64,000 nucleotides of DNA, taken from positions 2,232,001 through 2,296,000 of the forward strand of contig NZ_VIWU01000001.1 of the NCBI RefSeq assembly GCF_007994075.1, given 5' to 3'. A model generated the notes under the pieces. The model worked only from the letters and a program-made list of their open reading frames with translations, had not been told where the DNA came from and did no database searches. Below are positions 45,969-62,252 of this stretch, piece after piece. The DNA comes from Pseudonocardia hierapolitana. Lineage in GTDB: Bacteria; Actinomycetota; Actinomycetes; Mycobacteriales; Pseudonocardiaceae. Positions within the stretch are counted from its first letter, which is position 1. Every line of letters starts with the position of its first letter. A program made the translations under genes and the position numbers.

Positions 45969-46384
45969 GGTAGCCCGACCTGCAGCCATCCGTCGGCGAC
46001 CCGCACCGGGTACACCGGCACGCGGACGCCCGGGTCGTCCAGGCACTCGCCCGTGACCAGGCTGAACACCTGCTTGTAGACCGGCGATGCGACGGTGGGC
46101 ACACCCCCGCGATCTCCCACGATCCCGCGCGAGAGCACCGCCGCCCCGGAGAAGGGGTCGACATTGCCGATCGCGTGCACCCCGTCGCTCCCGCCCTCCG
46201 CGTCGTCGGCCAGCCGGAACAGCGCCACCTGCACCGGCTCGCCGCCGGCCGCGAGCAGCGCGGCGGCCCCCCGCTCGGGCAGCAGGCGGTCGACCAGGCA
46301 GACGGTCTCCCACCGGAGACCGACCCTCGCTGTGTCGATCGTCTCGGTGTTGATCGTTTCGGTGTTGATCGTTTCGGCTGTCAT
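45965..46384 (-). CDS. nirD: Assimilatory nitrite reductase small subunit
   Basis: A 139-residue NirD with the Rieske-like fold (VALFRLADD ... VHAIGNVDPFSGAAVLSRGI; SPVYKQVFSLVTGECLDDP). As is usual for NirD, the cluster-binding Cys/His are absent. It partners NirB in reducing nitrite to ammonia. The N-terminus carries three copies of a five-residue unit (ETINT-like) from a 15-bp tandem repeat at 46332-46376. ATG 46384 overlaps the nirB stop (ATGA). Confidence 0.9.
   Translation of the reverse strand: MTAETINTETINTETIDTARVGLRWETVCLVDRLLPERGAAALLAAGGEPVQVALFRLADDAEGGSDGVHAIGNVDPFSGAAVLSRGIVGDRGGVPTVASPVYKQVFSLVTGECLDDPGVRVPVYPVRVADGWLQVGLP
46332..46376. repeat. Three-copy 15-bp tandem repeat in nirD 5' coding region
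   Basis: Units at 46332-46346, 46347-46361 and 46362-46376 (gtgttgatcgtttcg; first copy with three changes) lie in frame within codons 3-17 of nirD. Slippage would change the length of the N-terminal tail by five residues per unit without a frameshift. Confidence 0.8.
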
Positions 46385-48885
46385 GCGCGCACCCCCGGGA
46401 GGCCGAGCGTGACGGGCACCGGCTGGCCCCGTTCGCTGACGAACGTGATCGTCGGGTCGGGGGCGTCGGGCGCGTTGACGAAGGACACGAACCGCTCCAG
46501 CTTCTCGGGGTCCTCGAGCACGCCCCGCCACTCGTCGGCGTAGCCGGCGACGTGCGACTCCATGGCTGCCTCGAGGTCGGCGCAGATGCCGAGCGAGTCG
46601 TCGACGATCACGGCACGGAGGTGGTCGAGCCCGCCGTCCATGGCCTCGATCCAGGCGGCGGTGCGCTGCAGCCGGTCGGCGGTGCGGATGTAGAACATGA
46701 GGAACCGGTCGATGAGTGCGATCAGCGTGTCGGTGTCTACGTCGGAGGCGAGCAGCTCGGCGTGCCGCGGTGTGAAGCCGCCGTTGCCGCCGACGTAGAG
46801 GTTCCAGCCGGTCTCGGTGGCGATCAGCCCGAAGTCCTTGGACCGGGCCTCCGCGCACTCGCGGGCGCAGCCGGACACCCCGGACTTGATCTTGTGCGGG
46901 GCCCGCAGGCCGCGGTAGCGCAGCTCCAGCGCGACGGCCAGGCCCACCGAGTCCTGCTGGCCGTAGCGGCACCACGTGGTGCCGACGCACGACTTCACGG
47001 TGCGCAGCGCCTTGCCGTACGCGTGACCCGACTCGAAGCCTGCATCGACCAGCCGGCGCCAGATCGCCGGAAGCTGCTCGACCCGGGCGCCGAAGAGGTC
47101 GATCCGCTGCCCGCCCGTGATCTTCGTGTAGAGCCCGAAGTCGCGGGCCACCTCGCCGATCACGATCAGGCCCTCCGGCGTGATCTCGCCGCCGGGGATC
47201 CGCGGCACCACCGAATACGTGCCGTTGCGCTGCAGGTTGGCCAGGAAGTGGTCGTTGGTGTCCTGCAGCGCCGCCTGCTCGCCGGACAGGACGTGCCCGG
47301 TGCCGAGCGAAGCGAGGATCGAGGCGACCGCGGGCTTGCAGATGTCGCAGCCGCGGCCGGTGCCGTACTGGGCGATGAGCGCGGAGAACGTGCGTATCCC
47401 GGTGCCCGCGACGATCTCGAAGAGCTCGGCGCGGGACACGGCGAAGTGCTCGCACAGCGCCTTCGAGACCTCGACGCCCTCCTGGGCGAGCAGCGTCTTG
47501 AGCATCGGGACACAAGATCCGCAGCTGGTCCCGGCGCGGGTGCACGCCTTGAGCGCCGGCACGTCGTGCGCGCCACCGCAGATCGCCTCCCGCAGGGCGC
47601 CCTTCGTCACGGCGTTGCAGGAACAGATCTGGGCGGAGTCGGGGAGTGCGTCGGCGCCGAGCTCCACACCGCCGGGAGCGATCATCGCGACCGGGTCCGC
47701 CGGGAGCGGCGACCCGACGAGGGGCCGCAGCGTCGCGTACTTGGACGCGTCGCCGACCAGCACGCCGCCGAGCAGCGTCTTCGCGTCGTCGCTCACGACG
47801 AGCTTGGCGTAGGTGCCTGCGACGGGGTCGTTGACGACGACCTCCAGCGCGCCCGGTGTCCGGGCGAGCGCGTCGCCGAAGCTCGCGACGTCGACGCCGA
47901 GCATCTTCAGCTGCGTCGACATGTCCAGCTCGGCCGGCGTCATCGTGGCCTCGCCGCCGAGCAGCCGGTCGGCCACCACCTCGGCCATCGCGTACCCGGG
48001 CGCGACGAGCCCGTACGTGCGGCCCTCGAGGGCGGCGACCTCGCCGACGGCCCAGATGTGCGGGTCGGGCGTGCGGCACGCGGTGTTGACCAGCACGCCC
48101 CCGCGTTCACCGAGCGGCAGCCCGGCGCCGCGGGCCAGCCCGTCGGCGGGGCGGATGCCCGCGGAGAAGACGACGAGGTCCGCGTCCAGCTCGACCCCGT
48201 CGGAGAGCTCGGCGATCAGGCGACCCCGGTCCTCGCTGATCCCGGTGACCGACACCCCGCAGCGGACCTGCAGGTCCTCGGACTCCACGAGCCGCCGCAG
48301 CACCGCGCCGCCGCCCTCGTCGACCTGCACGGGCATGAGCCTCGGCGCGATCTCGACGACCTGCGGGGACAGGCCGAGCAGCCGCAGCGCCCGTGCGGCC
48401 TCCAGGCCGAGCAGCCCGCCGCCGACCACCACGGCCGAGCGCCGTCCCGCCCGGGGCGCCGACACGGCCCGCTCGGCGGCGCCCATGATCGCGTCGAGGT
48501 CGTCGAGGGTGCGGTAGACGAAGCAGCCCGGGAGATCGCGGCCGGGTACCGGTGGCACGAACGGCACCGACCCGGTGGCGAGCACGAGCGCGTCGTAGGG
48601 CAGCTCACGCCCGGCCGCGGTGCGCACCACGCGTGCGTCCCGGTCGAGCGCGACGGCCGCGTCGCCCAGGTGCAGCTGCACCAGCGGGTCTGCGACCTCG
48701 GGCAGCGTCAGTTCCTCGGCGGACTTGCCGTCGACGTAGGACGAGAGGGCGACGCGGTCGTAGGCGGGGCGGGACTCCTGCCCCAGCACCGTGATCCGCC
48801 ACGCGCCTGCGGTATCGCGGTCGCGCATGGCCTGCACCAGCCGGTGCCCGACCATGCCGTTTCCGACGACGACGAGCTCCTTCAC
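46381..48885 (-). CDS. nirB: Assimilatory nitrite reductase large subunit
   Basis: The 834-residue flavo-iron-sulfur-siroheme enzyme starts with an FAD/NAD-binding half (VVVGNGMVGHRLVQAM; VVVGGGLLGLEAARAL). It continues with a BFD-like [2Fe-2S] element (CSCNAVTKGAL ... CTRAGTSCGSC), and ends with the sulfite/nitrite reductase domains, where CVGTTWC and GCAREC supply the [4Fe-4S]-siroheme ligands. It reduces nitrite to ammonia with NAD(P)H. GTG 48885 has AGGAGG upstream and overlaps the stop of nasC (GTGA). Confidence 0.95.
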   Translation of the reverse strand: MKELVVVGNGMVGHRLVQAMRDRDTAGAWRITVLGQESRPAYDRVALSSYVDGKSAEELTLPEVADPLVQLHLGDAAVALDRDARVVRTAAGRELPYDALVLATGSVPFVPPVPGRDLPGCFVYRTLDDLDAIMGAAERAVSAPRAGRRSAVVVGGGLLGLEAARALRLLGLSPQVVEIAPRLMPVQVDEGGGAVLRRLVESEDLQVRCGVSVTGISEDRGRLIAELSDGVELDADLVVFSAGIRPADGLARGAGLPLGERGGVLVNTACRTPDPHIWAVGEVAALEGRTYGLVAPGYAMAEVVADRLLGGEATMTPAELDMSTQLKMLGVDVASFGDALARTPGALEVVVNDPVAGTYAKLVVSDDAKTLLGGVLVGDASKYATLRPLVGSPLPADPVAMIAPGGVELGADALPDSAQICSCNAVTKGALREAICGGAHDVPALKACTRAGTSCGSCVPMLKTLLAQEGVEVSKALCEHFAVSRAELFEIVAGTGIRTFSALIAQYGTGRGCDICKPAVASILASLGTGHVLSGEQAALQDTNDHFLANLQRNGTYSVVPRIPGGEITPEGLIVIGEVARDFGLYTKITGGQRIDLFGARVEQLPAIWRRLVDAGFESGHAYGKALRTVKSCVGTTWCRYGQQDSVGLAVALELRYRGLRAPHKIKSGVSGCARECAEARSKDFGLIATETGWNLYVGGNGGFTPRHAELLASDVDTDTLIALIDRFLMFYIRTADRLQRTAAWIEAMDGGLDHLRAVIVDDSLGICADLEAAMESHVAGYADEWRGVLEDPEKLERFVSFVNAPDAPDPTITFVSERGQPVPVTLGLPGVRA

Positions 48886-50372
48886 GCGGCTCCCTCCTCG
48901 GGGACGGGGGTCAGCGCTGTCTGTTCGCTCCGCAGAGCTCCGCTCAGCGTCGGGGGGTCGCTCTCGGCGAGCCACGCGCAGATGCCGCGCACCGCGTCGC
49001 CGCAGCCGCCGCAGCCCGTGCCTGCGCGGGTGGCGCGGCTCAGGGCGGCGACGTCGGTGTGCCCGTCCCGCCACGCGGCGACGAGGGCACCCTTCGTGAC
49101 GGTGTTGCAGCGGCAGACGACAGCGGACGCAGGCAGGCGGCCCGGGTCGGCCGTCTCGGGGGCGCCGGGCAGCGCACGGCCGAACAGCAGCCCGAGCCGG
49201 TCGCTGGGGGCGGGCTGCCCCGTGTCGTAGTACTGGATCATGGAGGCGGCGGCCTGGGGCAGGCCGATCATGGCGCCGCCGACGACGCGATCGCCCCGCA
49301 GCGCGAGGGTGGCGTACCGGCCGCCCGACGGGTCGGCGAACCGCAGCACCTCCGCACCGGCCTCGGCCAGCACCGCGGGGTCGCCGACCGTGGCGAGGTC
49401 CACGTCGCGCGCCTTCAGCCGGGTGACGGCGCGGGTGCCCCCGTAGCGGGCGGCCGGGTTCGTGCCGGTGATCAGGTCGGCGAGCACAGCGGCCTGCTCC
49501 CAGCCCGGCTGCACGAGCCCCGCAGGCGTGCCCGGGTGCTGGGCGCAGTCGCCGATGGCGTGCACCCGCCCGTCGGAGGTGGCGAGCCGGTCGTCGACCA
49601 GAACGCCGCGGTCGACCGCGATCCCGGCGTCGGAGGCGAGGCCGGTCTCGGCCCGCACCCCGGCCGCGACGACCAGGGCGTCGGCCGCGACGAGCTCTCC
49701 GTCGGCGCCGCGCAGCCCGGCGTCGGGCTCCCACGCCGCCGCCCGGAAACCGAGCCGGACATCGACGCCCAGGCGCGTCATCGTGGCGGCGAGCACCTCG
49801 CCGGCGGCCGCGTCGAGCTGGCGCTCCATGAGGTGGGACATCGGGTGCACGACCGTCACGCGCACCCCGCGGCCCGCCAGCCCGCGGGCGGCCTCGCAGC
49901 CCAGCAACCCACCACCGAGCACGGCGAAGCGCGCGCCGGGTCGGGCCATCTCCAGGATCCGCTCGCAGTCGTCCAGGTCGCGGAACGGGACGACGTTCTT
50001 GTCGGCGAGCCCTTCGACCGGCGGCAGCCACGCCCGGCTGCCGGTGGCGAGCACCAGCTCGTCGTAGCGCTCCACCGCGCCGTCCGAGCAGTGCACGACC
50101 CGCTCCGCGCGGTCGACCGACTTCACGGTGACACCGACGCGCAGGTCCACGCGCTGCCGGGCGGCCCAGCCCGTGGGGTGCAGCTGCACCGCCTGCGCCG
50201 ACAGGCCTCCGCCCAGCACGGTGGACAGCAGCACCCGGTTGTAGGCCGGACGTGGCTCGGCACCGAGAACGGTCAGGCGCACGAGTCTGCCGTTCGGGTC
50301 CCGGCGCCGCACCTCCTCGACGAACCGGGCACCCACCATCCCGTGCCCCACGACCACGACCCGTCTGCTCAC
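48882..50372 (-). CDS. nasC: NasC-like FAD oxidoreductase with BFD domain
   Basis: A 496-residue protein similar to the N-terminal half of NirB: FAD motif VVVVGHGMVGARFVEEV, NAD motif FAVLGGGLLGCEAARGL, FAD-binding VHAIGDCAQHPG, then a BFD-like [2Fe-2S] segment (CRCNTVTKGAL ... CGGCGDAV). It lacks the siroheme part. Such proteins are electron-transfer subunits that pass NADH electrons to the assimilatory nitrate reductase, so NasC is the likely role. It leads the nirBD operon; GTG 50372 starts at the conserved motif. A GlnR-like box lies 25-60 bases upstream. Confidence 0.85.
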   Translation of the reverse strand: MSRRVVVVGHGMVGARFVEEVRRRDPNGRLVRLTVLGAEPRPAYNRVLLSTVLGGGLSAQAVQLHPTGWAARQRVDLRVGVTVKSVDRAERVVHCSDGAVERYDELVLATGSRAWLPPVEGLADKNVVPFRDLDDCERILEMARPGARFAVLGGGLLGCEAARGLAGRGVRVTVVHPMSHLMERQLDAAAGEVLAATMTRLGVDVRLGFRAAAWEPDAGLRGADGELVAADALVVAAGVRAETGLASDAGIAVDRGVLVDDRLATSDGRVHAIGDCAQHPGTPAGLVQPGWEQAAVLADLITGTNPAARYGGTRAVTRLKARDVDLATVGDPAVLAEAGAEVLRFADPSGGRYATLALRGDRVVGGAMIGLPQAAASMIQYYDTGQPAPSDRLGLLFGRALPGAPETADPGRLPASAVVCRCNTVTKGALVAAWRDGHTDVAALSRATRAGTGCGGCGDAVRGICAWLAESDPPTLSGALRSEQTALTPVPEEGAA

Positions 50373-50396
50373 GGCGACCGACGGTATGTAGCGGGA

Positions 50397-50433
50397 GTTA
50401 CGACGGTGGGGCGATAGGTGACGGGGACGTAAC
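50397..50433 (+). promoter_or_regulatory. GlnR-like box upstream of nasC-nirBD
   Basis: GTGAC (50418-50422), six bases, GTAAC (50429-50433) fits the GlnR consensus gTnAc-n6-GaAAc at nine of ten scored positions. Another GTTAC (50397-50401) lies 21 bases upstream. The site is in the 170-base gap before nasC, 25-61 bases from its start. Confidence 0.6.
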
Positions 50434-50542
50434 GCCGCTCGCACATCGGCGGACCGCACCCGTGAGCGGCGGTCGGCCGGGGGACCTCAGCGGCCGGGCG
50501 CCGGGCGGCGTAGGCCTGCCTCCCCGCGTCGCGCCGGACCCG

Positions 50543-51772
50543 TCACCGGGTCGCGACGGCCCCGTCCGGCCCGGGGACGTCCGCGGCCGCGGGCCCGCGC
50601 AGCCGGCGGGTGGCGACGGCGACCGCGACCGCGACCACGGCGATGCCGGCTCCGGTCAGCGTGGTCGCGGCGATGGAGAGGTTGCCGATCGTGGCGCCAC
50701 CGGCGAGCGAGCCGAGCGCGACGCCGATGTTCGCCGCGGACGCGGGCAGCGACTGCGCGAGCGTGCCGCCCGGGCCTGCCAGTTCCACGACGCGGTACTG
50801 CAGCGACGGCACCATGCCCGTGGCCACCAGGCCCAATGCGGCCAGCACGACGGCGACGACGGCCGGGCTCCCACCCACGAGCCGCAGGGCGAGCAGGCAG
50901 ACCGTCATACCTGCGGTCGCGACGATGAGCGTCCGCGCGGCGTCGTGGTCGGCGAACCGGCCGCCACCGATCGAGCCGACCGCCGTGGCGGCGCCGTGGA
51001 CGAGCAGGAACAGGCTGACGAAGGCCCCGGAGACACCGGTGACCGTTTCGAGGAACGGCACGACGTAGGTGAGCACCGAGTACAGGGCCGCGAACACGAG
51101 GAGCAGCAGGGTCAGCACGGCCAGGACGCGGGGGGCGAACGCGTGCCGCGCCTGGTCCGCCACCCCGGCCCGGGTTCCGGGAACGGACGGGACCAGCGTG
51201 AGGACGGCGGCGAGCGCCACCACGGCGACGGCGACGACGGCGAAGAACGCGCCGCGCCAGCCGACGACCTGCCCGAGGAGCGTGCCCAGCGGCACGCCCA
51301 GTGCGGTCGAGACGGCGAACCCGGAGAACACCACGGAGATCGCGCGGCCGGTGCGGGCCGGCTCGGCGACCGACGTGCCGACCGCGAACGCGACGGCGAT
51401 GAACAGCCCGGTGAGCGCGCCGGTGAGCACCCGGGCCACCACGAAGAGCGGGTAGCTCCCGACGACGACGGGCAGCAGGACGCCCACGACCACCAGGGCC
51501 AACGCGCAGACCAGCACCACGCGCCGGTCCAGCCGGATCGTCAGCGCGGTCAGGAGCGGCCCCCCGACCGCGAGCCCGAGCGCGAAGGCGGTGACCAGCC
51601 CCCCGGCCGCGGGAACGGACACGCCGAGGTCCGCCGCGATGAGGTTGAGCACGCCGACGACGAGCATCTCGGTGGTGCCGAGCACGAACGTGCCCAGGAA
51701 CAGCGCGGCCAGCACGCGGTCCGCCCGCCCCGCGCGGGTGCGCGTCTCGCCGTCCGGTCTCCCGATGGTCAT
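50543..51772 (-). CDS. MFS transporter (DHA1/AraJ-like efflux)
   Basis: This 409-residue protein has twelve hydrophobic segments. The features TTEMLVVGVLNLIAADLGVS (TM1), GGPLLTALTIRLDRR (motif A) and AVSTALGVPLGTLLGQVVGWR are typical of sugar- or drug-efflux DHA1 members such as AraJ/YdhP. Start ATG 51772. It is divergent from an HxlR regulator, a common efflux pairing. It interrupts the nitrate genes and probably has nothing to do with them. Confidence 0.85.
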   Translation of the reverse strand: MTIGRPDGETRTRAGRADRVLAALFLGTFVLGTTEMLVVGVLNLIAADLGVSVPAAGGLVTAFALGLAVGGPLLTALTIRLDRRVVLVCALALVVVGVLLPVVVGSYPLFVVARVLTGALTGLFIAVAFAVGTSVAEPARTGRAISVVFSGFAVSTALGVPLGTLLGQVVGWRGAFFAVVAVAVVALAAVLTLVPSVPGTRAGVADQARHAFAPRVLAVLTLLLLVFAALYSVLTYVVPFLETVTGVSGAFVSLFLLVHGAATAVGSIGGGRFADHDAARTLIVATAGMTVCLLALRLVGGSPAVVAVVLAALGLVATGMVPSLQYRVVELAGPGGTLAQSLPASAANIGVALGSLAGGATIGNLSIAATTLTGAGIAVVAVAVAVATRRLRGPAAADVPGPDGAVATR

Positions 51773-51860
51773 CGCAACCCCTCGACTGCTCCTGTTTTGC
51801 AAGCGCAGTGACCGTACGGCAGACTGATGGCATAACGCAACTGGTGCAGAGGTGGTTGCA

Positions 51861-52370
51861 GTGCGGAAGGACGTCCGGTCGGGCTGCCCGATCAACCAGT
51901 CGCTGGAGATCTTCGGCGACCGTTGGACGCTGCTGGTGCTGCGCGACATCATCTTCGCCGGCGCACGGCACTTCCGTGAGCTGCTGGCCGGCCCCGAGCG
52001 GATCTCGTCGAACATCCTGAGCGACCGGCTCTCCCGGCTCGTCGAGCACGGGCTGCTCACGCGCGCGGGCGACCCCGCACACCAGCAGAAGGTCGTCTAC
52101 AGCCTCACCGAGCAGGCGATCGAGCTCGTCCCCGTGCTCGCCCAGATCAGCTCGTGGGGCACACGGCACCTGCCGGCCGACGACGAGCTGTGCGTGGCTC
52201 GCGCGCGGGTGCTCGACGAGGGCGGGCCGCCGCTGTGGGAGGCCTACATGGACGAGCTCCGCGAGATCCACCTCGGCCCGGGAGCGCGCCGCACGCCGGC
52301 GCCGGAGGGTCCGACGGCCGGCGAGCGGATGCAGGCGGCGTACGAGGCGGTGCTGCGGGCGGGCGCCTGA
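51861..52370 (+). CDS. HxlR-family transcriptional regulator
   Basis: A 169-residue winged-helix protein of the HxlR type: SGCPINQSLEIFGDRWTLLVLRDIIF at the N-terminus and FRELLAGPERISSNILSDRLSRL as recognition part. The N-terminal Cys (about residue 10) is the one used for redox or electrophile sensing in several HxlR proteins. GTG 51861 has AGAGG eight bases upstream; GTG 51852 is an alternative. It likely controls the divergent MFS gene: overlapping promoters (GTGACC-N17-CATAAC on + and TTGCGT-N18-TACGGT on -) share 51808-51840. Confidence 0.85.
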   Translation: MRKDVRSGCPINQSLEIFGDRWTLLVLRDIIFAGARHFRELLAGPERISSNILSDRLSRLVEHGLLTRAGDPAHQQKVVYSLTEQAIELVPVLAQISSWGTRHLPADDELCVARARVLDEGGPPLWEAYMDELREIHLGPGARRTPAPEGPTAGERMQAAYEAVLRAGA

Positions 52371-52380
52371 CCGGCCGGCG

Positions 52381-54453
52381 TCAGGCCGGCTCGAGCCGGA
52401 CCGCGCACACCTTGAACTCGGGCATGCGGCTGATCGGGTCCAGCGCCGGGTTGGTGACGAGGTTGGCCGCCTGCTCGGCGCCGAAGTGGAACGGCAGGAA
52501 CACCGTGTCCGGCCGCAGGCTCGGCACGCACCGCACGCGTGCCTCCGCCGTGCCACGCCGGGAGACCACCCGCGCCCGGTCGCCGTCGGCGAGGCCGGCT
52601 CGCGCAGCGGTGTCCGGATGGACCTCCACGAACGACTCCGGCGCGACACCGGAGAGATCGGCGACCCGGCGGGTCTGCGCACCCGACTGGTAGTGCACCA
52701 GCACCCGCCCGGTGGTGGCCCGCAGCGGGTGGTCGGCGTCGGGCAGCTCGGCCGACGGCGTGTGGTCGACCGCGATCAACCGGGCGCGCCCGTCGGGGTG
52801 GGCGAACCGCTCGGTGAACAACCGCGGCGTGCCGGGGTGGCCGGGCGCGGGGCACGGCCAGTGCAGCGCCTCGCCCGCGTCCAGCCGGTCGTAGCTGATG
52901 CCGGAGTAGTCGGCGATCCCGCCCGCCGAAGCGGCCCGCAGCTCGTCGAACACCACCCGCGGCTCGCTGGGGAACCCGGCGGCGCCGAGCCGCTCGGCGA
53001 GCCCCGACACCACCTCCAGGTCGGTGCGCACCCCGTCCGGCGGACGCATCGCGCGTCGCCTGCGCAGCACCCGGCCCTCGAGGTTGGTCATCGTGCCCTC
53101 CTCCTCGGCCCACTGGGCGACGGGAAGCACGACGTCGGCGGCCATCGCCGTCTCGCCCGGCAGGATGTCGGCGACGACCAGCAGGTCCAGCGCCGCGAGC
53201 CGATCGGCCACGGCGTTCGCGTGCGGCGCGGAGACGAGCACGTTCGAGCCGAAGACGAGCAGCGCCTTCGGGCCGTCGCGGCGGCCGAGTGCGGCGAGCA
53301 GCTCGGTGGCGCTGCGACCCGGCCCCGGCAGGCTGTCCGGGTCCACGCCCCATACGCCCGCGACGTGCGCGCGGGCGGCGGGATCGCTGATCGAGCGGTA
53401 GCCCGGCAGCTGGTCGGACTTCTGCCCGTGCTCGCGCCCACCCTGCCCGTTGCCCTGCCCGGTGATCGTGCCGAAGCCCGAGCCGGGCCGGCCCGGCAGC
53501 CCCAGCGCGAGGGCGAGGTTGATCCAGGAGGTGACCGTGTCGACGCCGTGGGCGTGCTGCTCGGCGCCGCGCGCGGTGAGCACGTAGCGCCGCGCCGCCC
53601 CGGCGAGCCAGCCGACGGCGGTGCGCATGTCGGAGGCAGGCACCCCGCACACCCGCTCCGCGCGCTCGGGCCACCACTGCCCGGCGACCCGCCAGGCGTC
53701 GTCGAAGCCGGTGGTGCGCTCGGCCAGGTAGTCGGCGTCGAGGTGCCCGTCGGTCACGGCGGCGTGCAACATCCCCAGCGCCAGCACGAGGTCGGTGCCC
53801 GGCACGGGCTGCAGGTGCAGCCCGCCCGACGCCAGCGCCCGCTCCGCCGTCGGCGTCCGCCGTGGATCCACCACCACGAGCCGGGCAGCGGCGAGGTGCC
53901 CCATCAGCGGTGGCATCGTCTCCGCGACGTTCGCGCCCGCGAGCAGCACGACCTCCGCCTCGTCGAGATCGGTGACGGGGAACGGCAGCCCGCGGTCGAT
54001 CCCGAACGCCCGGTTGCCGGCGGCGGCCGCCGACGACATGCAGAACCGGCCGTTGTAGTCGATCTGCGAGGTGCCGAGCGCGACGCGGGCGAACTTGCCC
54101 AGCAGGTAGGCCTTCTCGTTCGTGAGCCCGCCCGCGCCGAAGACGGCGACGGCATCCGGGCCGTGCTCGGCCTGCAGCTCGCACAGCCGGCCCGCGACGT
54201 GCCCCAGTGCCGCGTCCCAGCTCACCGGGTCGAACGGGGCCGAACGCGACGCGCGCACCAGCGGGGTGGTCAACCGCTCGGGATGGGCGAGCAGGCTGCC
54301 CGAGGTCCAGCCCTTCTGGCACAGCCCGCCGCGGTTGGTGGGGAACTCCCGGCCGTCGACGTCCCCGCGGCCGTCGACCCACTGGCCGCACTGCAGCGCG
54401 CAGTACGGGCAGTGGGTGGCGACTCTCGTCGTCGGGGTGACCGCGAGCGTCAT
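52381..54453 (-). CDS. nasA: Assimilatory nitrate reductase catalytic subunit
   Basis: The 690-residue molybdopterin enzyme has an N-terminal [4Fe-4S] motif (CPYCALQC ... GLCQKG), the Mo-ligand region NGRFCMSSAAAAGNRAFG, bis-MGD contacts (GQGNGQGGREHGQK) and a C-terminal dinucleotide-binding beta barrel. It reduces nitrate to nitrite in the cytosol; no Tat signal is seen, as expected for an assimilatory enzyme. ATG 54453 overlaps the narK stop (ATGA). The gene order narK-nasA gives uptake and reduction in one transcript. The product ends 10 bases from the HxlR stop (convergent). Confidence 0.93.
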   Translation of the reverse strand: MTLAVTPTTRVATHCPYCALQCGQWVDGRGDVDGREFPTNRGGLCQKGWTSGSLLAHPERLTTPLVRASRSAPFDPVSWDAALGHVAGRLCELQAEHGPDAVAVFGAGGLTNEKAYLLGKFARVALGTSQIDYNGRFCMSSAAAAGNRAFGIDRGLPFPVTDLDEAEVVLLAGANVAETMPPLMGHLAAARLVVVDPRRTPTAERALASGGLHLQPVPGTDLVLALGMLHAAVTDGHLDADYLAERTTGFDDAWRVAGQWWPERAERVCGVPASDMRTAVGWLAGAARRYVLTARGAEQHAHGVDTVTSWINLALALGLPGRPGSGFGTITGQGNGQGGREHGQKSDQLPGYRSISDPAARAHVAGVWGVDPDSLPGPGRSATELLAALGRRDGPKALLVFGSNVLVSAPHANAVADRLAALDLLVVADILPGETAMAADVVLPVAQWAEEEGTMTNLEGRVLRRRRAMRPPDGVRTDLEVVSGLAERLGAAGFPSEPRVVFDELRAASAGGIADYSGISYDRLDAGEALHWPCPAPGHPGTPRLFTERFAHPDGRARLIAVDHTPSAELPDADHPLRATTGRVLVHYQSGAQTRRVADLSGVAPESFVEVHPDTAARAGLADGDRARVVSRRGTAEARVRCVPSLRPDTVFLPFHFGAEQAANLVTNPALDPISRMPEFKVCAVRLEPA

Positions 54454-55835
54454 ACGTGCGCGTACGCCACGCGCGGGTGCGTGGCCTCGGCCGGTACCGG
54501 ACGCAGGTAGACCACGTAGGTCACCGCGATGCACACCACGTAGAAGGCGAGGAAGGACCAGAACGCCGGGTCGCCGGACTGCGCGGTCATGAACGACTGC
54601 CGGAACGCCAGGTTGATGAACAGGCCGCCGAGCGCCCCGATCGCGCCCGCGATGCCGATGACCGCGCCCGACAGGCGCCGCGCCCGCAGGTACGCGGGAC
54701 CGGGCTCGGCACCGGCGGTCTCGATCGCGACGCGCGCCTGGCCCCGGAAGATCGCCGGGATCATCTTGTAGGTGGAGCCGTTGCCGACGCCGCTGAACAC
54801 GAACAGCAGCACGAAGCCGATCGTGTACAGCGTCAGCGAGTCCATGGCCGATGCCGCGAGCACCACGAGGGCCGAGACACCCATCGCGATGAAGTTGTAG
54901 AACGTGACCTTCGCGCCGCCGTACTTGTCGGCGAACCACCCGCCCACGGGCCGGATCAGCGAGCCGAGGAGCGGGCCGATGAACGTCACCGCCGCGGCCT
55001 GCAGCGGGGTGCGGCCGAACTGGTTCTGCAGCACGAGCCCGAACGCGAAGCTGTAGCCGATGAACGACCCGAACGTGCCGATGTAGAGGAACGACATCAC
55101 CCAGGTCTGCGGCTCCCGGTACGCCTCCTTGAAGGCCCCGGTGTCGTTGCGCATGGAGGTGAGGTTGTCCATCTTCAGCGCGGCGAAGGTGGCGGCGACC
55201 ACGATCAGCGGGATGTAGACGCCGAGCAGGATCCGCGGCGCGCCCGCTCCCGCCGTCGCGATGATCAGCAGGCCGACCAGCTGGATGACCGGCACGCCGA
55301 TGTTCCCCCCGCCGGCGTTCAGTCCCAGTGCCCAGCCCTTCTTCGCCTCCGGGTAGAAGGCGTTGATGTTCGCCATGGACGAGGCGAAGTTCCCGCCGCC
55401 GAGCCCACCGACGGCGGCGACGAGTACGAACACCCAGTACGGCGTGCCGGGCTGCATCACGATCGCGGCGAGGATCGTCGGGATCAGCAGCAGGGCCGCG
55501 CTCACGATCGTCCAGTTGCGGCCGCCGAAGCGCGCCGGGGCCATCGTGTAGGGCAGCCGGAGGATCGAGCCCACCAGCGTCGGCACGGCGACCAGGAAGA
55601 ACTTCCCCGCCGCGTCGATGCCGTACTCCGGGCCCATGAAGAGCACGAGGACCGACCACATCGTCCAGATCGAGAAGCCGATGTGCTCGGAGAGGATCGA
55701 GAACCACAGGTTGCGGTTCGCCACCTTCGCGCCGGTGCGCTCCCAGAACCCGCCGTCCTCGGGGTCCCAGTGGTCGATCCAACGCCCGCGGAGCAGGGAA
55801 CGCGCGGGGGGTGCGTCTGGTGCCGTCGTCGTCAC
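54450..55835 (-). CDS. narK: NarK-type nitrate/nitrite transporter
   Basis: The 461-residue MFS protein has twelve segments and the nitrate signatures in TM5 (GLGGGNFASSMANINAFYP) and TM11 (GVGNGSTYKMIPAIF), plus arginines at RLPYTMAPARFGGR. It imports nitrate (or exchanges it with nitrite). GTG 55835 has CCAGGAGGACCGGC directly upstream. A GlnR-like box lies 50-87 bases upstream, consistent with control by nitrogen supply. Confidence 0.93.
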   Translation of the reverse strand: MTTTAPDAPPARSLLRGRWIDHWDPEDGGFWERTGAKVANRNLWFSILSEHIGFSIWTMWSVLVLFMGPEYGIDAAGKFFLVAVPTLVGSILRLPYTMAPARFGGRNWTIVSAALLLIPTILAAIVMQPGTPYWVFVLVAAVGGLGGGNFASSMANINAFYPEAKKGWALGLNAGGGNIGVPVIQLVGLLIIATAGAGAPRILLGVYIPLIVVAATFAALKMDNLTSMRNDTGAFKEAYREPQTWVMSFLYIGTFGSFIGYSFAFGLVLQNQFGRTPLQAAAVTFIGPLLGSLIRPVGGWFADKYGGAKVTFYNFIAMGVSALVVLAASAMDSLTLYTIGFVLLFVFSGVGNGSTYKMIPAIFRGQARVAIETAGAEPGPAYLRARRLSGAVIGIAGAIGALGGLFINLAFRQSFMTAQSGDPAFWSFLAFYVVCIAVTYVVYLRPVPAEATHPRVAYAHV

Positions 55836-56020: not shown

Positions 56021-56842
56021 TTACAGGAGGGGGCCGATCGCGCCCGCCGCACGCTGCAGGCCGGCCAGCGTCCGCGGGGAGGCGTCGGGGTGCTGCGCGT
56101 GCAGCGCGACGCGGTGCAGCAGGGCCCGCAGCAGCATCTGCGGCCACTCCTCGAGGTGCGTCCACCGCTGGGGCAGCTCCTCGTCGGCACCGCCCCAGGC
56201 CAGCGCGTCGACGACGATGACGGCGGCGGCCCACTGCGCCGGGCGCCAGCACGGGACGAGGTCGATGACCGCCGGCACGCCCCGCTCGTCGAACAGGACG
56301 GCACCGAAGAGCTCGGGGTGCACCAGCTGAGGCGTGAGCTGGACGGGCTTGCGGAACTCGGCGAGCTGCGAGTAGAGCTCACCGCCGGTGGACGGGTCGA
56401 GGGTGAGCCGCCGCTCGCCGAACGCTCCGGCGGCGGACCGGGCGACCAGGTCGTCGCGGTCGTCGAGGAGCCGCGGCCGGGAGACGCTCGCGGTGGCGGC
56501 GTGCAGCCGGATGGACGTCTCGACGACCTCGTCGTAACGGGGTTCGACGTAGCCGGGGATGTAGCGGCACGCGGCCCAGCCGCCGACCACCCACCGCCCG
56601 TCGGAGGAACGCAGCGGGCGGGCGATGCGCACGCCGTCGACCTGGAGCCCGTCGAGGACCGCCGCGGACCAGGCGGCCACGACGTTGTCCGGCACCGGGC
56701 GGACGAGGACGTCGCCGCAATGCCATGCCCGCCTACCTGCCCAGACCACCGGACGTGGCTCGACATCGTTCACGCCGAAAGCGGTGCGAACGTGCGCGGG
56801 AAGGGTGGTCCCGGCGGGCGGCAGGACAGGCGCAGCGGTCAC
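56021..56842 (-). CDS. TIGR02569 family protein (Rv3205c position)
   Basis: A 273-residue protein with a phosphotransferase-like pattern (PVVWAGRRAWHCGDVLVRPVPD; LVHPELFGAVLFDERGVPAVIDLVPCWRPAQW) resembling an aminoglycoside-phosphotransferase/kinase fold in which the catalytic HxDxxxxN loop reads HPELFGAVL. Actinobacterial TIGR02569 proteins have no known function. GTG 56842 precedes the conserved PVLPPAGTTLP; the frame upstream is unconserved. Confidence 0.8.
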   Translation of the reverse strand: MTAAPVLPPAGTTLPAHVRTAFGVNDVEPRPVVWAGRRAWHCGDVLVRPVPDNVVAAWSAAVLDGLQVDGVRIARPLRSSDGRWVVGGWAACRYIPGYVEPRYDEVVETSIRLHAATASVSRPRLLDDRDDLVARSAAGAFGERRLTLDPSTGGELYSQLAEFRKPVQLTPQLVHPELFGAVLFDERGVPAVIDLVPCWRPAQWAAAVIVVDALAWGGADEELPQRWTHLEEWPQMLLRALLHRVALHAQHPDASPRTLAGLQRAAGAIGPLL

Positions 56843-56956
56843 GGCATCGCACGCTACCTGCGCACCGCGGGCGTTCCGGGGTGCCACGCGGGGCGCGTCG
56901 CCGCGCCCCGCGATCGGGCGGCGCGGGCGGTTGGATGATCACTCGCCGTCGTCGCC

Positions 56957-59900
56957 TCAGTCGTCGTCCCCGCCGTCGCCGCCGTCATCGCCGCCGCCGT
57001 CACCGCCGTCGTCGGAGTCCCCGCCGTCGTCCCCGCCGTCGTCGTCACCGCTGTCGGAATCGCCGCGGTCGTCATCCCCGCCGTCCTCGGAATCACGATC
57101 GCGGGAATCGCGATCGTCGGAATCGCCGGATTCCTCGTCCGAGTCCTTGTCCGAATCCTTGTCCGAATCCTTGTCGGAGTCCTTGCCGGAGTCCTTGTCG
57201 GAGTCCTTGTCGGAGTCACGGTCCGAGTCGTCGTCGGACTTCCGATCCGACTTTTCGTCCGAATCCCGGTCGGACTCGTTGTCGGAGTCCCGCTCGGAGT
57301 CCGAGTTCCGGTCGGTGTCGCGGTCTGCGTCGCGGTTGTCGTCGCGGTTGTCCTCGCGGTTGTCGTCGCGGTCCTCGTCGCGGGCCGATTCGCCGTCGGT
57401 GTCGCGCTCGGAGTCCGAGTCGCGGTCGGACCTGCTCTCGGTTTCCCGTTCCGAGTCCTGGTCGGCTTCCTCGCCCGAGCGGTTGTCGGACTCCCGGTTC
57501 GCCGAGTCCTCCTCCGACCGATCGTCGGACTCCCGCTCGGATTTCCGCTCCGATCCCCCGTCGCGCTCGGCGTCCTCGTCCGGGTCCCGTTCCGATGAGT
57601 CGCGTTCCGACCAGCTCTCGGAACCCTCGGTGTCCGAGTCCCGATCGGAGTCCTCGGAGTCACGGTCGGAAGAGGCGCGGTACGCGGAGTCCTCGTCGGA
57701 GGAGCCCTCCTCCGACAGTGCCTCCCAGACGGCCGCCTCGAGCTCGTCCTCGTCCCAGCCGCTCAGGTCGTCCGACCCGGAATCCCGGTCGGACGATTCA
57801 CCCGACGAGTCGTCTTCCCCGGATTCCCGATCCGGAGCGTCACCATCCGACCCGCGTTCGGATCCGCGGTCAGCGTCCCGGTCCGAGTCCCGGTCCGAGT
57901 CGCCGTCCGAGGAGTCGCCGTCCGAGGAGTCGTCCGCCTCGGCCGCAGCCGCCAGCAGGGACCCGAGTCCGGAGGCACCGAGCGCCTCGAGCACCCTTCC
58001 GGCGCGTTCGACGTCCTCCGAGCTCTCGGAGCCCGACGAGTCGTCCGAGTCCTGCCTCCCCCGGTCGCGCTCGCCGTCCGATCGGCCGGCGCGGTCGCCG
58101 TCCGATTCCTCGCCGGACCGGTCGGTCTCGCGGGCGGGGCCACGGTCGGGGCCGCGGTCGGTGTCGGCCCGCTCGCCCGCGTCGTCGCGCCCACGGTCGG
58201 GCCCACGGTCGGCCCCGCCGCCACCGCGGTCGTCCTCCCGGTCGTCGTCGCCGGTCAGCGCGCCGCCGACGGCCTCGACGACCCCCGTGACCTCGCGCTC
58301 GGGCCCGGACGAGCCCGAGTCGTCGCCGTCGTCCCCGTCGCTGCCGCCACGGTCGGCGCCGCCGCCGCTCGGCTTGCTGTCGGACGCGCCGCCCCGGTCG
58401 CTGCGGCCGTCCCCGTCGTCGCCGTCGTCCGAGTCGTCCCGGTCGTCGCCACCGCCGAGAAGACCGCGGAGCGGCCCGGCGGTGTCACCGCCGCCGGAAC
58501 CGCCGGAGCTGCCGCCAGGGCTGCCGGCGGAGTCACCGTCGGAGTCGCCGCCGGAACCGCCGCCGGAGTCGTCGCCGGAACCGCCGCCGCCTTCCCGTGC
58601 ACCGTCGTCATGGCCCTCGTCAGACCGACCGCCGCCCCCGAGGAGGTCGCCGACGGATCCCAGGATCCCGCCCGGGGACCGACCGCCGCCCGACTCCGGG
58701 CCTGCGGCGCCGTCGCCGCCCGGCCCCGCCCCATCCGGGGCGCCGCCCGGCGTGCCCCCGCCCGCGCGGTCGCCCGGCTCGGCGGCGCCGGGACGCTCGC
58801 GCTCCCCGCCGTCGCCGGTGTCCGAGTCACCCGGGCCGCTGTCGCCACCCAGCGCCTCGCCGACGGACCCGAGTGCATCACCGATGGGGCCACCGGGCCC
58901 TCGATCGCCCGGGCCCTCGTTCTTCTCCTCGCCCGGGTCGCCCGGGGCTCCTCCCCGGTCGCCGGAGCCGCCCGGAGCATCGCCTTCGGGGCCGCCCGGG
59001 CCCTGGGCACGGGGTCCTTCCCGCTCGTCGGCGTCGTTGTCCCGGTCACCCGTCCCCGGTGGCCCGTTCCGGCCTTCGGCGTCTTCCGTCCGACCGTCGC
59101 CGTCAGCGCCGCCGAGCGCCTCGCCCAACGAGTCGAGCGCCTCGCCTACAGGCCCGCCCGGCTGCTGGCGATCCCCGCCATCACCTTCACCGGTCTCCCG
59201 GCGGTCGCCCGGATCCCGATCCGCGCCGCCCGGCGTCCCGGGCGCGTCACCGGCCGGCGCACGCCCACCCGGGCTCTCCCCGCCTCCGGCCGGGGAACGC
59301 GCCTCGTCGCCGGGCTCGTCGCCGCCGGGCCTGTCACCCTGCTCGTCACCGCCGAGCGCCCCGCCCAGCGAGTCCAACGCGTCCGCGATCGGCCCGCGCT
59401 GCTGGCCACCGCCGTCCGCCCGGACGTCGGGCTCGTCCTCGTCGGACGGCGCTTCGGGGTCGTCGTCGTGCTCCGCGGACTCGTCGCCGGGGCCGCGCGG
59501 GTCCGGCGGCGCCCCGTTGGACGTGTCCTGCCGCTCCTTGTCGTCGTGCTCGTCGCGCGGAGCGACCACGTCAGGGAGGTCGGGCAGGACGTCTCCCTCG
59601 TCCTTGCGCTCGTCGGACTCGTCGCGGTCCGATTCGTCGGACTCGTCGCCGTCCGCCTCGGCGCCGTCCTGGTCGTCTCCTTCGGCGTCCTCCGAGTTCT
59701 CGCCCGGCTCCTCGTCGGAGCCACCACGTTCGACAACGTCGAGGACGCGCTCCCGCACGTCCTCGGTCTCCTCGTCGTCGTCGGGCAGCGGCGCCCGAAC
59801 GGCGTTGTCGACGCCCCGCTCGAGCTCCTCCAGCTCGTCGCGCTTGGCCTCCCGCTGCCGCAACCGCAGGTCGCGCTGCTCCTCGAGCGCGGCGAGCTCG

Positions 59901-60679
59901 GAGGACTGTTCGGGGCCCCGCCGGCCGGTCGGTGCGGCCGCGCGCGCCTGCTCGACCGCCTGCAGGTGGCGCTCGGTGCTCTGGAGGTCGGCCCTGGCGC
60001 GGTCGAGCGAGCGGTAGGTGTCGATCTGCGACTGCAGGGTGGCCTTCCGCCGTTCGAGGAGGGCCTTGCGCGCCTGCAGGTCCTTCACCTCGGGCGGTGT
60101 GATCGTGCGCCGCTCCGGCGGGAGGCTGATCCACGCCCGCTCGGTCTGCGCGATCGTGTCGAGCTGGCTGTCGAGCGAGGTGAGGGTGATCTGGGCGTGC
60201 GCGATCCACTCAGCGCGTGGGTCCACCCCGGGCGGGAGCGGGGCGGCGGCCTGCGGCGGGGCGATCGGTTCGGACGCGGTGAAGACGTAGGTGGCGGCGA
60301 GGATGCCGGCGGCGCCGAACACCGCGACGGTGCGCCGCCTGCGCGCGGTCGCGCCGGCGGCGGCCCTGGCGCGGGTGGAGGCGGCCTCCGCGGCCCGCTC
60401 CACGCGGCGCGCCTCGACGAGAGCCCGCTGCTCCCGCACGCCGTGCGGGACGGGCGGCGCGTCCGGTTCGTCCTGGGGCTCGAGCAGCCAGGGAAGGGCG
60501 GCTGCGAGGCGCGCGTCGTGGCCCGCCTGCGCAGCGGCCCTGCGGGCCTGCCGGGCGGCGGCCCGGTGCGCTGCCGTGCAGTAGCGACGAGGCGGACGAC
60601 CGGGGATGTCCTCGATCACCTCGTTGCACCCCGGGAGGGCACAACGTCTCGCAGTGTCGTCCACCAGTGCGACCCCCAT
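56957..60679 (-). CDS. Giant acidic Ser/Asp-repeat membrane protein with N-terminal zinc finger
   Basis: The 1240-residue product has four parts. Residues about 13-38 form a C-x4-C-x15-C-x3-H zinc-finger-like motif (CALPGC ... RYCTAAHR) before a basic helix. Residues 117-134 are a single membrane helix after RRRR (VAVFGAAGILAATYVFTA). Residues about 165-290 form a coiled-coil (DLQARKALLERRKATLQSQ). From about 300 to the end it is disordered and extremely acidic (Asp, Ser, Gly, Glu, Arg). Eight short hydrophobic islands interrupt it about every 60-100 residues: GPIADALDSLGGALGG (about 429), GGPVGEALDSLGEALGG (508), GGPIGDALGSVGEALGG (594), GGILGSVGDLLGG (669), GPLRGLLGGG (735), VTGVVEAVGGALTG (796), RVLEALGASGLGSLL (895), ELEAAVWEALSEEG (about 980). 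The last 250 residues are SD/DSDK/RDS repeats. Orientation by the positive-inside rule puts the finger in the cytosol and the acidic tail outside. I do not recognise the family. ATG 60679 precedes the finger closely. Confidence 0.75.
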   Translation of the reverse strand: MGVALVDDTARRCALPGCNEVIEDIPGRPPRRYCTAAHRAAARQARRAAAQAGHDARLAAALPWLLEPQDEPDAPPVPHGVREQRALVEARRVERAAEAASTRARAAAGATARRRRTVAVFGAAGILAATYVFTASEPIAPPQAAAPLPPGVDPRAEWIAHAQITLTSLDSQLDTIAQTERAWISLPPERRTITPPEVKDLQARKALLERRKATLQSQIDTYRSLDRARADLQSTERHLQAVEQARAAAPTGRRGPEQSSELAALEEQRDLRLRQREAKRDELEELERGVDNAVRAPLPDDDEETEDVRERVLDVVERGGSDEEPGENSEDAEGDDQDGAEADGDESDESDRDESDERKDEGDVLPDLPDVVAPRDEHDDKERQDTSNGAPPDPRGPGDESAEHDDDPEAPSDEDEPDVRADGGGQQRGPIADALDSLGGALGGDEQGDRPGGDEPGDEARSPAGGGESPGGRAPAGDAPGTPGGADRDPGDRRETGEGDGGDRQQPGGPVGEALDSLGEALGGADGDGRTEDAEGRNGPPGTGDRDNDADEREGPRAQGPGGPEGDAPGGSGDRGGAPGDPGEEKNEGPGDRGPGGPIGDALGSVGEALGGDSGPGDSDTGDGGERERPGAAEPGDRAGGGTPGGAPDGAGPGGDGAAGPESGGGRSPGGILGSVGDLLGGGGRSDEGHDDGAREGGGGSGDDSGGGSGGDSDGDSAGSPGGSSGGSGGGDTAGPLRGLLGGGDDRDDSDDGDDGDGRSDRGGASDSKPSGGGADRGGSDGDDGDDSGSSGPEREVTGVVEAVGGALTGDDDREDDRGGGGADRGPDRGRDDAGERADTDRGPDRGPARETDRSGEESDGDRAGRSDGERDRGRQDSDDSSGSESSEDVERAGRVLEALGASGLGSLLAAAAEADDSSDGDSSDGDSDRDSDRDADRGSERGSDGDAPDRESGEDDSSGESSDRDSGSDDLSGWDEDELEAAVWEALSEEGSSDEDSAYRASSDRDSEDSDRDSDTEGSESWSERDSSERDPDEDAERDGGSERKSERESDDRSEEDSANRESDNRSGEEADQDSERETESRSDRDSDSERDTDGESARDEDRDDNREDNRDDNRDADRDTDRNSDSERDSDNESDRDSDEKSDRKSDDDSDRDSDKDSDKDSGKDSDKDSDKDSDKDSDEESGDSDDRDSRDRDSEDGGDDDRGDSDSGDDDGGDDGGDSDDGGDGGGDDGGDGGDDD
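57137..57220 (-). repeat. 12-bp tandem repeat (seven units) within the Ser/Asp gene
   Basis: Units of the form gtccgagtcctt (+ strand) at 57137, 57149, 57161, 57173, 57185, 57197 and 57209 encode the DSDK-type tetrapeptide on the minus strand. Differences are confined to one to three bases. This in-frame array can change in length without loss of frame. Confidence 0.85.
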
Positions 60680-61029: not shown

Positions 61030-62202
61030 TCAGTACACGGGCTGGGAGGGGTCGACCTGCTTGATCCAGGCCAGCACGCCGCCGCCGACGTGCACGGCGT
61101 CCTTGAAGCCTGCGCGGTGCAGCACCGCAAGGGCCTCTGCCGAACGCACCCCTGACTTGCAGTGCAGCACGACGGGCTTGTCCTGTGGGATCTCGGCGAG
61201 GGCCTCGCCGGACAGGATGCGGTCCTTCGGGATCAGCGTCGCGCCCGGGATGCTGACGATCTCGTACTCGTTCTGCTCGCGGACGTCGATCAGCGCGAAG
61301 TCCTTGCCCGCGTCGATCATCTCCTTGAGCTCGAGCGCCGTGATCGTGCTCCCGACGGCCGCCTGCTGCGCGTCCTCGGACACCACACCGCAGAACGCCT
61401 CGTAGTCGATGAGCTCGGTGATCTTCGGCGTGTTGGGGTCCTTGCGGATCTTGATCGTGCGGTAGCTCATCTCGAGGGCGTCGTACACCATCAGCCTGCC
61501 CAGGAGCGGCTCACCGATGCCGGTGATCAGCTTGATGGCCTCGTTGACCATGATCGAGCCGATCGACGCGCACAGCACGCCCAGCACGCCACCCTCGGCG
61601 CAGGACGGAACCATCCCGGGCGGCGGCGGCTCGGGGTAGAGGTCGCGGTAGTTGAGGCCCTTGCCGTTCGGGGCGTCCTCCCAGAACACCGACGCCTGGC
61701 CCTCGAACCGGAAGATCGAGCCCCACACGTACGGCTTGCCGAGCAGGACCGCCGCGTCGTTCACCAGGTAGCGCGTGGCGAAGTTGTCGGTGCCGTCGAG
61801 GATGAGGTCGTAGTCGCGGAAGACGTCGAGGACGTTCGAGGAGTCGAGCCGCGTCTCGTGCAGCCGGACCTCGACGAACGGGTTGATCTCCTTGATGGAG
61901 TCGCGCGCCGATTCCGCCTTCGACCGGCCGACGTCGGACTGCCCGTGGATGATCTGCCGCTGCAGGTTGGACTCGTCGACCACGTCGAACTCGACGATGC
62001 CGAGCGTGCCGACGCCCGCGGCGGCGAGGTAGAGCAGCGCCGGGCTCCCGAGCCCGCCCGCGCCGACCACCAGCACCTTCGCGTTCTTCAGCCGCTTCTG
62101 CCCCGCCATGCCGACGTCCGGGATGATGAGGTGGCGGCTGTAGCGCTCGACCTCCTCCTTGGACAGCTCGGCGGCCGGCTCCACGAGCGGCGGTAGCGCC
62201 AT
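61030..62202 (-). CDS. moeZ: MoeZ: adenylyltransferase/sulfurtransferase
   Basis: The 390-residue protein joins an E1-like MoeB domain (VLVVGAGGLGSPALLYLAAAG; catalytic Asp in LDGTDNFATRYLVND) to a C-terminal rhodanese domain whose active-site loop is HCKSGVRS. MoeZ adenylates and then sulfurylates small sulfur carriers (MoaD, CysO, ThiS types), supporting molybdenum-cofactor, cysteine and thiamine/2-thioribothymidine chemistry. It links to the molybdoenzyme NasA in this window. ATG 62202 has GAGGAG upstream. It matches the Rv3206c position. Confidence 0.94.
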   Translation of the reverse strand: MALPPLVEPAAELSKEEVERYSRHLIIPDVGMAGQKRLKNAKVLVVGAGGLGSPALLYLAAAGVGTLGIVEFDVVDESNLQRQIIHGQSDVGRSKAESARDSIKEINPFVEVRLHETRLDSSNVLDVFRDYDLILDGTDNFATRYLVNDAAVLLGKPYVWGSIFRFEGQASVFWEDAPNGKGLNYRDLYPEPPPPGMVPSCAEGGVLGVLCASIGSIMVNEAIKLITGIGEPLLGRLMVYDALEMSYRTIKIRKDPNTPKITELIDYEAFCGVVSEDAQQAAVGSTITALELKEMIDAGKDFALIDVREQNEYEIVSIPGATLIPKDRILSGEALAEIPQDKPVVLHCKSGVRSAEALAVLHRAGFKDAVHVGGGVLAWIKQVDPSQPVY

Positions 62203-62252
62203 GATCAAGCTCCTCGCATCGACGTACTGACTCCGTGTGCGCAACGTCGTGG

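Follow-up and report, generated by a model that had tools for sequence, protein, structure and literature searches.

Staphylococcal Sdr proteins join an LPxTG wall anchor to a Ser-Asp repeat region. Mycobacterial PacL proteins need a GXXG motif in their membrane span for clustering (PMC13043812), and the CGNR zinc finger has been proposed to be DNA-binding (PMC2954205). A gene of Pseudonocardia hierapolitana with some likeness to each of these is analyzed below. It lies in a stretch of 64,000 nucleotides (contig NZ_VIWU01000001.1, positions 2,232,001 to 2,296,000; hereafter the window) and codes for a protein with, from N- to C-terminus, a zinc finger, a single membrane span, a predicted coiled coil, a PPDPRGP motif, and a low-complexity tail of 843 residues. 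It represents an undescribed Pseudonocardia family whose tail most likely reaches into the cell wall. With slightly more doubt than confidence, we propose that these are single-pass proteins, N-terminus inside and C-terminus outside, that would act as envelope-spanning, self-clustering tethers. The observations counted for this proposal are the more positive flank before the span, the wall-side domain of protein P0022, the GXXG motif shared with PacL, the breadth of the family across the genus, a low ratio of nonsynonymous to synonymous substitution rates (dN/dS) in the N-terminal part, the higher conservation of hydrophobic islands than of spacers in the tail, and the retention of span and coil in another genus, g59, where the finger is exchanged.

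Order of the parts and the finger

The preliminary description had proposed a finger, one span, a coil, and a long tail, and this anatomy holds on the minus strand:

56957..60679, minus strand: whole gene, 1240 amino acids, ATG at 60679, stop codon at 56957-56959
60497..60652, minus strand: CGNR-like finger, putatively a treble clef, residues 10-61, with ligands C13, C18, C34, and H38 and a basic helix at 36-61
60275..60331, minus strand: membrane span, residues 117-135, from hydropathy, with RRRR just before it and G122-A-A-G125 within
59726..60220, minus strand: predicted extracytoplasmic helical coiled coil, residues 154-318, from AlphaFold helices
59489..59509, minus strand: PPDPRGP motif, residues 391-397, recurring in loose form in relatives
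56960..59488, minus strand: low-complexity tail, residues 398-1240, Asp/Ser-rich towards its end, from composition and coding constraint

The order of these parts can be read from the sequence itself, as can the coding of the tail, the synteny, and the conservation of the islands taken up below. The true start codon is uncertain: in-frame starts upstream of 60679 are possible as far as 60868, the relative P0002 begins 10 residues before the position aligned with it, and inspection of the sequence before the annotated ATG reveals no obvious ribosome site. Among the other aligned proteins from the same locus (beside moeZ, see following), 25 of 29 have the loose motif PP[DEA][PS].?[GS][PS], truncated sequences being counted.

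The protein had been described as unlike any named family. In a scan of its 1240 residues against Pfam and NCBIfam, no family exceeds its own cut-off, which agrees with that claim, but the finger ligands are spaced as in the CGNR treble clef. Matches of the N-terminal profile to PDB sequences are weak coiled coils only (best E = 0.0094), PADLOC gives no match and so no sign of an anti-phage role, and the family is absent from the papers found by a search limited to open-licence literature.

The finger ligands are arranged as C13-x4-C18-x15-C34-x3-H38, and C13, C18, and C34 are the only cysteines of the protein. Together with R39, R43, R46, and R47, the ligands are invariant in 29 of 29 aligned sequences. 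The structural model of the finger (mean predicted local distance difference test, pLDDT, 80.7) has a hairpin at 10-12/21-23 and a helix at 36-61, and its top Foldseek match is the zf-CGNR treble clef of Jann_2411 (PDB 3h0n). The zf-CGNR profile (PF11706) stays below its gathering score of 24 bits, with 14.1 for the whole protein and 15.4 for residues 1-300. The finger shares with this family the C-x4-C-x15-C-x3- spacing, an aromatic residue before the third ligand, and the basic helix, and differs from it by having His in place of the fourth Cys and by lacking the Asn-Arg that follows the last ligand, the window protein reading H-R-A-A where the C-G-N-R signature is expected. By its ligand spacing, then, the finger is not wholly new, but CGNR-like, with His replacing the final Cys. 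Among 43 sequences checked, 40 bear the finger (the other three have N-termini that are cut or frame-shifted), and in all 40 the final ligand is His, with the middle spacing being x15 in 26, x16 in 12, and x19 in 2. ZAS anti-sigma factors carry H-x3-C-x2-C and have a neighboring sigma gene; the window protein lacks H-x3-C-x2-C, and the direct neighbors of its gene are moeZ and TIGR02569, not a sigma gene. Two minus-strand open frames of 123 and 125 amino acids, measured stop to stop (L152 and L153), contain a finger without coil or tail.

Residues 117-135 have a mean Kyte-Doolittle hydropathy of 1.74, and every 19-mer more than 25 residues away reaches at most 1.27. The flanks of this span carry charges of +6 on the N-side and -1 on the C-side in the window protein, and the N-side flank is the more positive in 41 of 41 sequences. 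Hence, the finger is predicted to lie inside and the tail outside, and the topology should be N-in/C-out, as had been suggested. The motif GXXG occurs within the span in 17 of 28 moeZ-locus sequences and in 9 of 13 paralogs. Behind the span, the AlphaFold model, which reaches residue 363, has helices at 154-184, 196-247, 256-295, and 302-318, and pLDDT in the coil is 80 to 98 by ten-residue block. A BAR domain (a curved dimeric three-helix coil) is not claimed for this region, where the structure matches are helical-bundle noise.

The relatives in genus g59 retain the span and coil and have the finger exchanged for another module of ~95 residues. The same module, shared by these non-Pseudonocardia relatives, forms the N-terminus of protein P0022 (49% identity, covering 15% of the query) and has no Pfam match there at E up to 0.1. 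Behind it, P0022 has a hydrophobic segment and then a transglycosylase-like domain, PF06737 (E = 5.5e-35). In Rpf proteins, this domain acts on peptidoglycan. P0022 thus resembles the window protein in having an N-terminal module, a hydrophobic segment, and a wall-side part in that order; it differs in that its module is not the Pseudonocardia finger and in having an enzyme domain instead of coil and tail. That a swapped, putatively cytosolic module is fused to a wall domain of the Rpf type fits a tail predicted to be outside. In Pseudonocardia, no fusion of the finger to such a domain was found at 30 loci with PF06737 matches (part of a longer list), read out to 1.5-kb flanks, nor in 15 chosen stretches.

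The finger invites a different explanation, a one-component transmembrane regulator whose tail and coil would sense the state of the wall or of its ions and whose DNA-binding finger would respond; ToxR-type regulators are a working analog. The single span, the predicted coil, the invariant arginines, and the ligand spacing of a finger for which DNA binding is proposed (PMC2954205) all suit a regulator, whereas the lack of Asn-Arg after the last CGNR ligand, the different module in g59, and the failure to see a conserved target operon do not, and we consider this explanation rather unlikely.

Tail, islands, and spacers

Low complexity extends over residues 319-1240 (922 residues), and past residue 300 there are 220 Asp, 196 Gly, 114 Ser, and 99 Glu. 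The 843-residue tail contains 23% Asp, 22% Gly, 13% Ser, 10% Glu, and 10% Arg, with the last ~240 residues Asp/Ser-rich, a composition that suggests disorder. Such DNA raises the suspicion that the tail is an artefact, a GC-rich repeat read out of frame or in antisense: there are long overlapping open frames on the plus strand, of up to 1130 amino acids. Codon comparison of the window gene with that of a close relative, G022, yields a dN/dS of 0.16 for the N-terminal part and 0.31 for the tail in the annotated frame. In the remaining sense frames, the tail has ratios of 1.58 and 1.83, and in the antisense frames 0.42, 1.61, and 1.65, the low value of 0.42 probably arising because third positions are shared. 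The annotated frame is also free of stops in the aligned blocks, and the tails of relatives are read in the same frame. Since its dN/dS is the lowest, the tail is most likely translated as annotated, and an artefact, against which the preliminary description had cautioned, is very improbable. The plus-strand frame of 1130 residues (window 56625..60017), which is Ser/Pro-rich and overlaps the gene, is itself most likely a GC-rich artefact. In L035, L056, and L067, the tails are frame-shifted within low-complexity DNA, through assembly error or real variation.

Tails vary in length between 172 and 857 residues (a contig end truncates one of the shortest), and the spacers are acidic, Gly/Ser-rich, or Ala-rich. 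Sequences lacking the PPDPRGP pattern contribute no tail to any tail count; L067 and L056 were left out of the spacing test given below, and L035 also out of the charge count. Net charge per residue goes from -0.28 to +0.04 over 23 tails, of which 8, in two clades, are acidic (-0.15 or lower). The more than 900 disordered acidic residues claimed for this protein are matched by its 922 low-complexity residues, but acidity itself is present in only those 8 of 23 tails. Acidity is thus not conserved, which argues against a calcium or Sdr-like role. Surface cation capture, as in Sdr proteins, had been put forward for the tail, and its Asp/Ser-rich last ~240 residues and the few tails ending in Asp/His-rich runs would fit; given the small number of acidic tails and a protein without LPxTG, we regard it as distinctly improbable. 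In the tails that end in such runs (L053, L054, and L064), metal binding is possible.

The spacers are interrupted by hydrophobic islands, defined as 12-residue windows with at least 4 of VILMFWY:

59345..59389, minus strand: island 1, residues 431-445, IADALDSLGGALGGD, density test
59105..59149, minus strand: island 2, residues 511-525, VGEALDSLGEALGGA, density test
58841..58885, minus strand: island 3, residues 599-613, IGDALGSVGEALGGD, density test
58628..58678, minus strand: island 4, residues 668-684, SPGGILGSVGDLLGGGG, density test
58451..58480, minus strand: weak island, residues 734-743, AGPLRGLLGG, which fails the window test and is not amphipathic
58247..58303, minus strand: island, residues 793-811, density test
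57947..58015, minus strand: island, residues 889-911, density test
57707..57760, minus strand: island, residues 974-991, with two Trp, density test

Seven islands follow PPDPRGP, whereas 1000 shuffles of the same tail average 0.41 and never exceed 3, and there is an eighth, short one (GPLRGLLGG at 735). The number of eight amphipathic islands given earlier thus stands as seven that pass the density test plus the short eighth, but helical amphipathicity is significant (p < 0.05) for only 3 of the 8. The three near-copies described among them are found, beginning at residues 429, 509, and 597, and the spacing is indeed regular, being more even than random (coefficient of variation 0.19, P = 0.001, islands kept apart).

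Islands recur in many relatives, though not in all, so that the refuting case named earlier, homologs lacking the island spacing, does not hold. Relatives have forms such as GPVGGVIDAVGGLLGG (L036) and GPVETVVDTVEDVVDGP (L047). In 14 of 25 relatives' tails, the number of islands by hydrophobic density exceeds that of at least 495 of 500 shuffles. The strict pattern G-[PGSN]-[VIL]-x2-[VAIL]-[VIL]-x2-[VLAI]-x2-[VLIA] occurs in 11 of 25, and none of 500 shuffles matched the observed count in those 11. In 7 of 7 chosen pairs (the window in two of them), identity is higher in islands than in spacers: 0.81/0.64, 0.81/0.53, 0.74/0.47, 0.72/0.62, 0.69/0.41, 0.49/0.45, and 0.55/0.47. By density, pattern, and pair identity, the proposed plan of islands and spacers is thus present in many relatives. 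Conserved islands and variable spacers are expected if the islands are working parts and the spacers fill space, and the pattern fits such a division. Alternatively, function may reside in the first 320 residues only, with the tail a passive brush selected for length and hydration and its islands weakly constrained. The great variation in tail length and composition, the higher dN/dS of the tail, and the 11 of 25 tails in which islands are not clearly above shuffles would all follow from a brush; the conservation of islands in every chosen pair and their excess over shuffles in the other 14 tails would not. We think a brush unlikely.

Distribution, locus, and paralogs

Some copy of the family is present in 60 of 62 Pseudonocardia genomes, and in 40 of the 40 with completeness of at least 90% and contamination of no more than 5%. 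G006 and G199, the two that give no match, are undecided because contig ends cut moeZ. A locus search gives one related locus, which has 78% identity and belongs to Pseudonocardia sp. CNS-004. Of 120 genomes sampled from the taxonomic family, 7 match, 5 of them Pseudonocardia and 2 of genus g59; a g59 query matches 13 of 200 genomes, 11 Pseudonocardia and the same 2 of g59. An earlier set included 24 genomes from beyond the genus, one of which matched, weakly and with two stops. Because the four genome searches with the N-terminal part scored only some of the candidates (per genome, no more than 39, 19, 38, and 10, respectively), absence outside the genus is not firm.

The gene has the following neighbors, neither being part of the system:

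61030..62205, minus strand: moeZ, upstream (NF005902, 783.6 bits for a cut-off of 647)
56021..56887, minus strand: TIGR02569 gene, downstream (TIGR02569, 231.2 bits for a cut-off of 136.75)

It lies beside them in 33 of 37 Pseudonocardia genomes inspected: 31 chosen for a visible neighbor, the window, G021, and G010, G012, G028, and G032. The order moeZ-gene-TIGR02569 is kept in 26 of the 31, the other 5 being cut by contig ends with one neighbor left, and in G015 and G021 the gene adjoins moeZ at a contig end. These two and the last four were examined since the best match lay elsewhere or was cut. G010, G012, G028, and G032 keep moeZ and TIGR02569 with a gap of 55 to about 3,800 bases and no family match in it; in G012 and G010, the gap holds other-strand frames, read by eye, of unrelated multi-span proteins, and G010, G012, and G028 carry a paralog at a proteasome-ATPase locus. 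The family is accordingly almost constant in the genus, and its position by moeZ is frequent rather than universal, a point without bearing on the mechanism. At 40 loci from other genera of the taxonomic family, no relative of the gene was found by moeZ; in 36 of them, 24 to 1550 bases separate moeZ from TIGR02569, and in the other 4 no TIGR02569 was found nearby. As the pair occurs without the gene elsewhere, the gene was gained within, or on the way to, Pseudonocardia; a few lineages either lost it or never acquired it. Because the neighbors predate the gene, they say little about its function, and a functional tie to moeZ and TIGR02569, whose co-occurrence had been named as a check, is not supported, the two standing together without the gene at those 36 loci and in four Pseudonocardia as well. 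A link to moeZ or to nitrate genes was considered and finds no support in synteny. The window does contain a run resembling nitrate assimilation genes (44778..55835), coding for proteins whose best NCBIfam matches make them NarK-like and NasC-like, though neither reaches its curated cut-off, and including frames that by eye are nitrite-reductase-like and uroporphyrinogen-synthase-like.

Paralogs form other clades of the tree and occupy other recurring places; their split from the moeZ-locus sequences has support 88/92, below the strict mark, and the 13 paralogs aligned are a chosen part of the paralog matches. Some lie near proteasomal ATPase and PD-(D/E)XK nuclease genes (L060-L062), others near apparent nitrite-reductase and uroporphyrinogen genes identified by eye (L072, L088, and L095). 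A further setting is a string of a SepIVA-like gene, two MinD-like ATPases, the paralog on the opposite strand, a GntR regulator, and two more MinD-like ATPases, complete in L068, L073, L091 (1285-12286), L097, and L098 and partial in L070, L071, L086, L087, L092, and L099. The first gene, with weak DivIVA-type matches only, is what we take to be SepIVA-like. The paralog in this string is convergent to the two MinD-like ATPases behind that gene. The source genome of the window also carries a paralog of this string.

Proposed mechanism and comparison with known systems

In the tether that we propose, the putative treble-clef finger and basic helix would hold a cytosolic partner, either nucleic acid or protein; the span, with GXXG or GxxxG, and the coiled coil would gather several copies; and long, hydrated, poorly conserved spacers would carry sticky islands into the peptidoglycan. 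There, the islands might bind neighboring tails, or tail and wall partner, so that a cytosolic site would be anchored at one place on the wall. Spacer chemistry could then change freely, and the islands would change less. The cytosolic partner, the clustering, and the wall contact are what we infer from the arrangement of the parts. Several observations weigh against the proposal. Four of the 37 genus genomes (G010, G012, G028, and G032; loci L225-L228) lack a copy at the moeZ locus, and no operon partner indicates a target for the finger. GXXG or GxxxG is found in only 19 of 28 moeZ-locus sequences, and the region 108-145, span included, has pLDDT < 50 in the AlphaFold model. The strict island pattern is missing from 14 of 25 relatives' tails, island number is not clearly above shuffles in 11 of 25, and of the 14 tails with at least five islands, window included, 7 are significantly even in spacing (P up to 0.015), these tails being related and hence not independent.

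A bolder form would make the protein a trans-envelope condensate scaffold, with clusters formed through GXXG and coil, sticker-and-spacer tails running through the peptidoglycan, and fingers gathering nucleic acid, coupling a patch of wall to a chromosomal or RNA site. Such a scaffold is improbable; if it existed, many strains would carry several, given the paralogs, one of which lies among MinD-like ATPases and a SepIVA-like gene.

Among described systems, PacL proteins (DUF1490) share with the tethers proposed here a single span with GXXG, in the window protein G122-A-A-G125, and a repeat-bearing soluble part (PMC13043812). The soluble part of PacL lies in the cytosol, where it binds metal through a C-terminal motif, whereas here the finger is predicted inside and the tail outside. 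The window protein has no Pfam or NCBIfam match to PacL/DUF1490. Staphylococcal Sdr proteins have a similar Asp/Ser-rich low-complexity stretch; unlike them, the window protein has no LPxTG (three paralogs hold chance-like LPxT forms), its acidity is not conserved in relatives, and a finger precedes its span. At the least, then, this is a family shared by 60 of the 62 Pseudonocardia genomes, with a window member outside every Pfam and NCBIfam model. To our knowledge, disordered sticker-and-spacer proteins have been studied mostly inside cells; if the proposal is right, a wall-located family of this kind, tied to a cytosolic finger, would make wall-side clustering testable in culturable actinobacteria.

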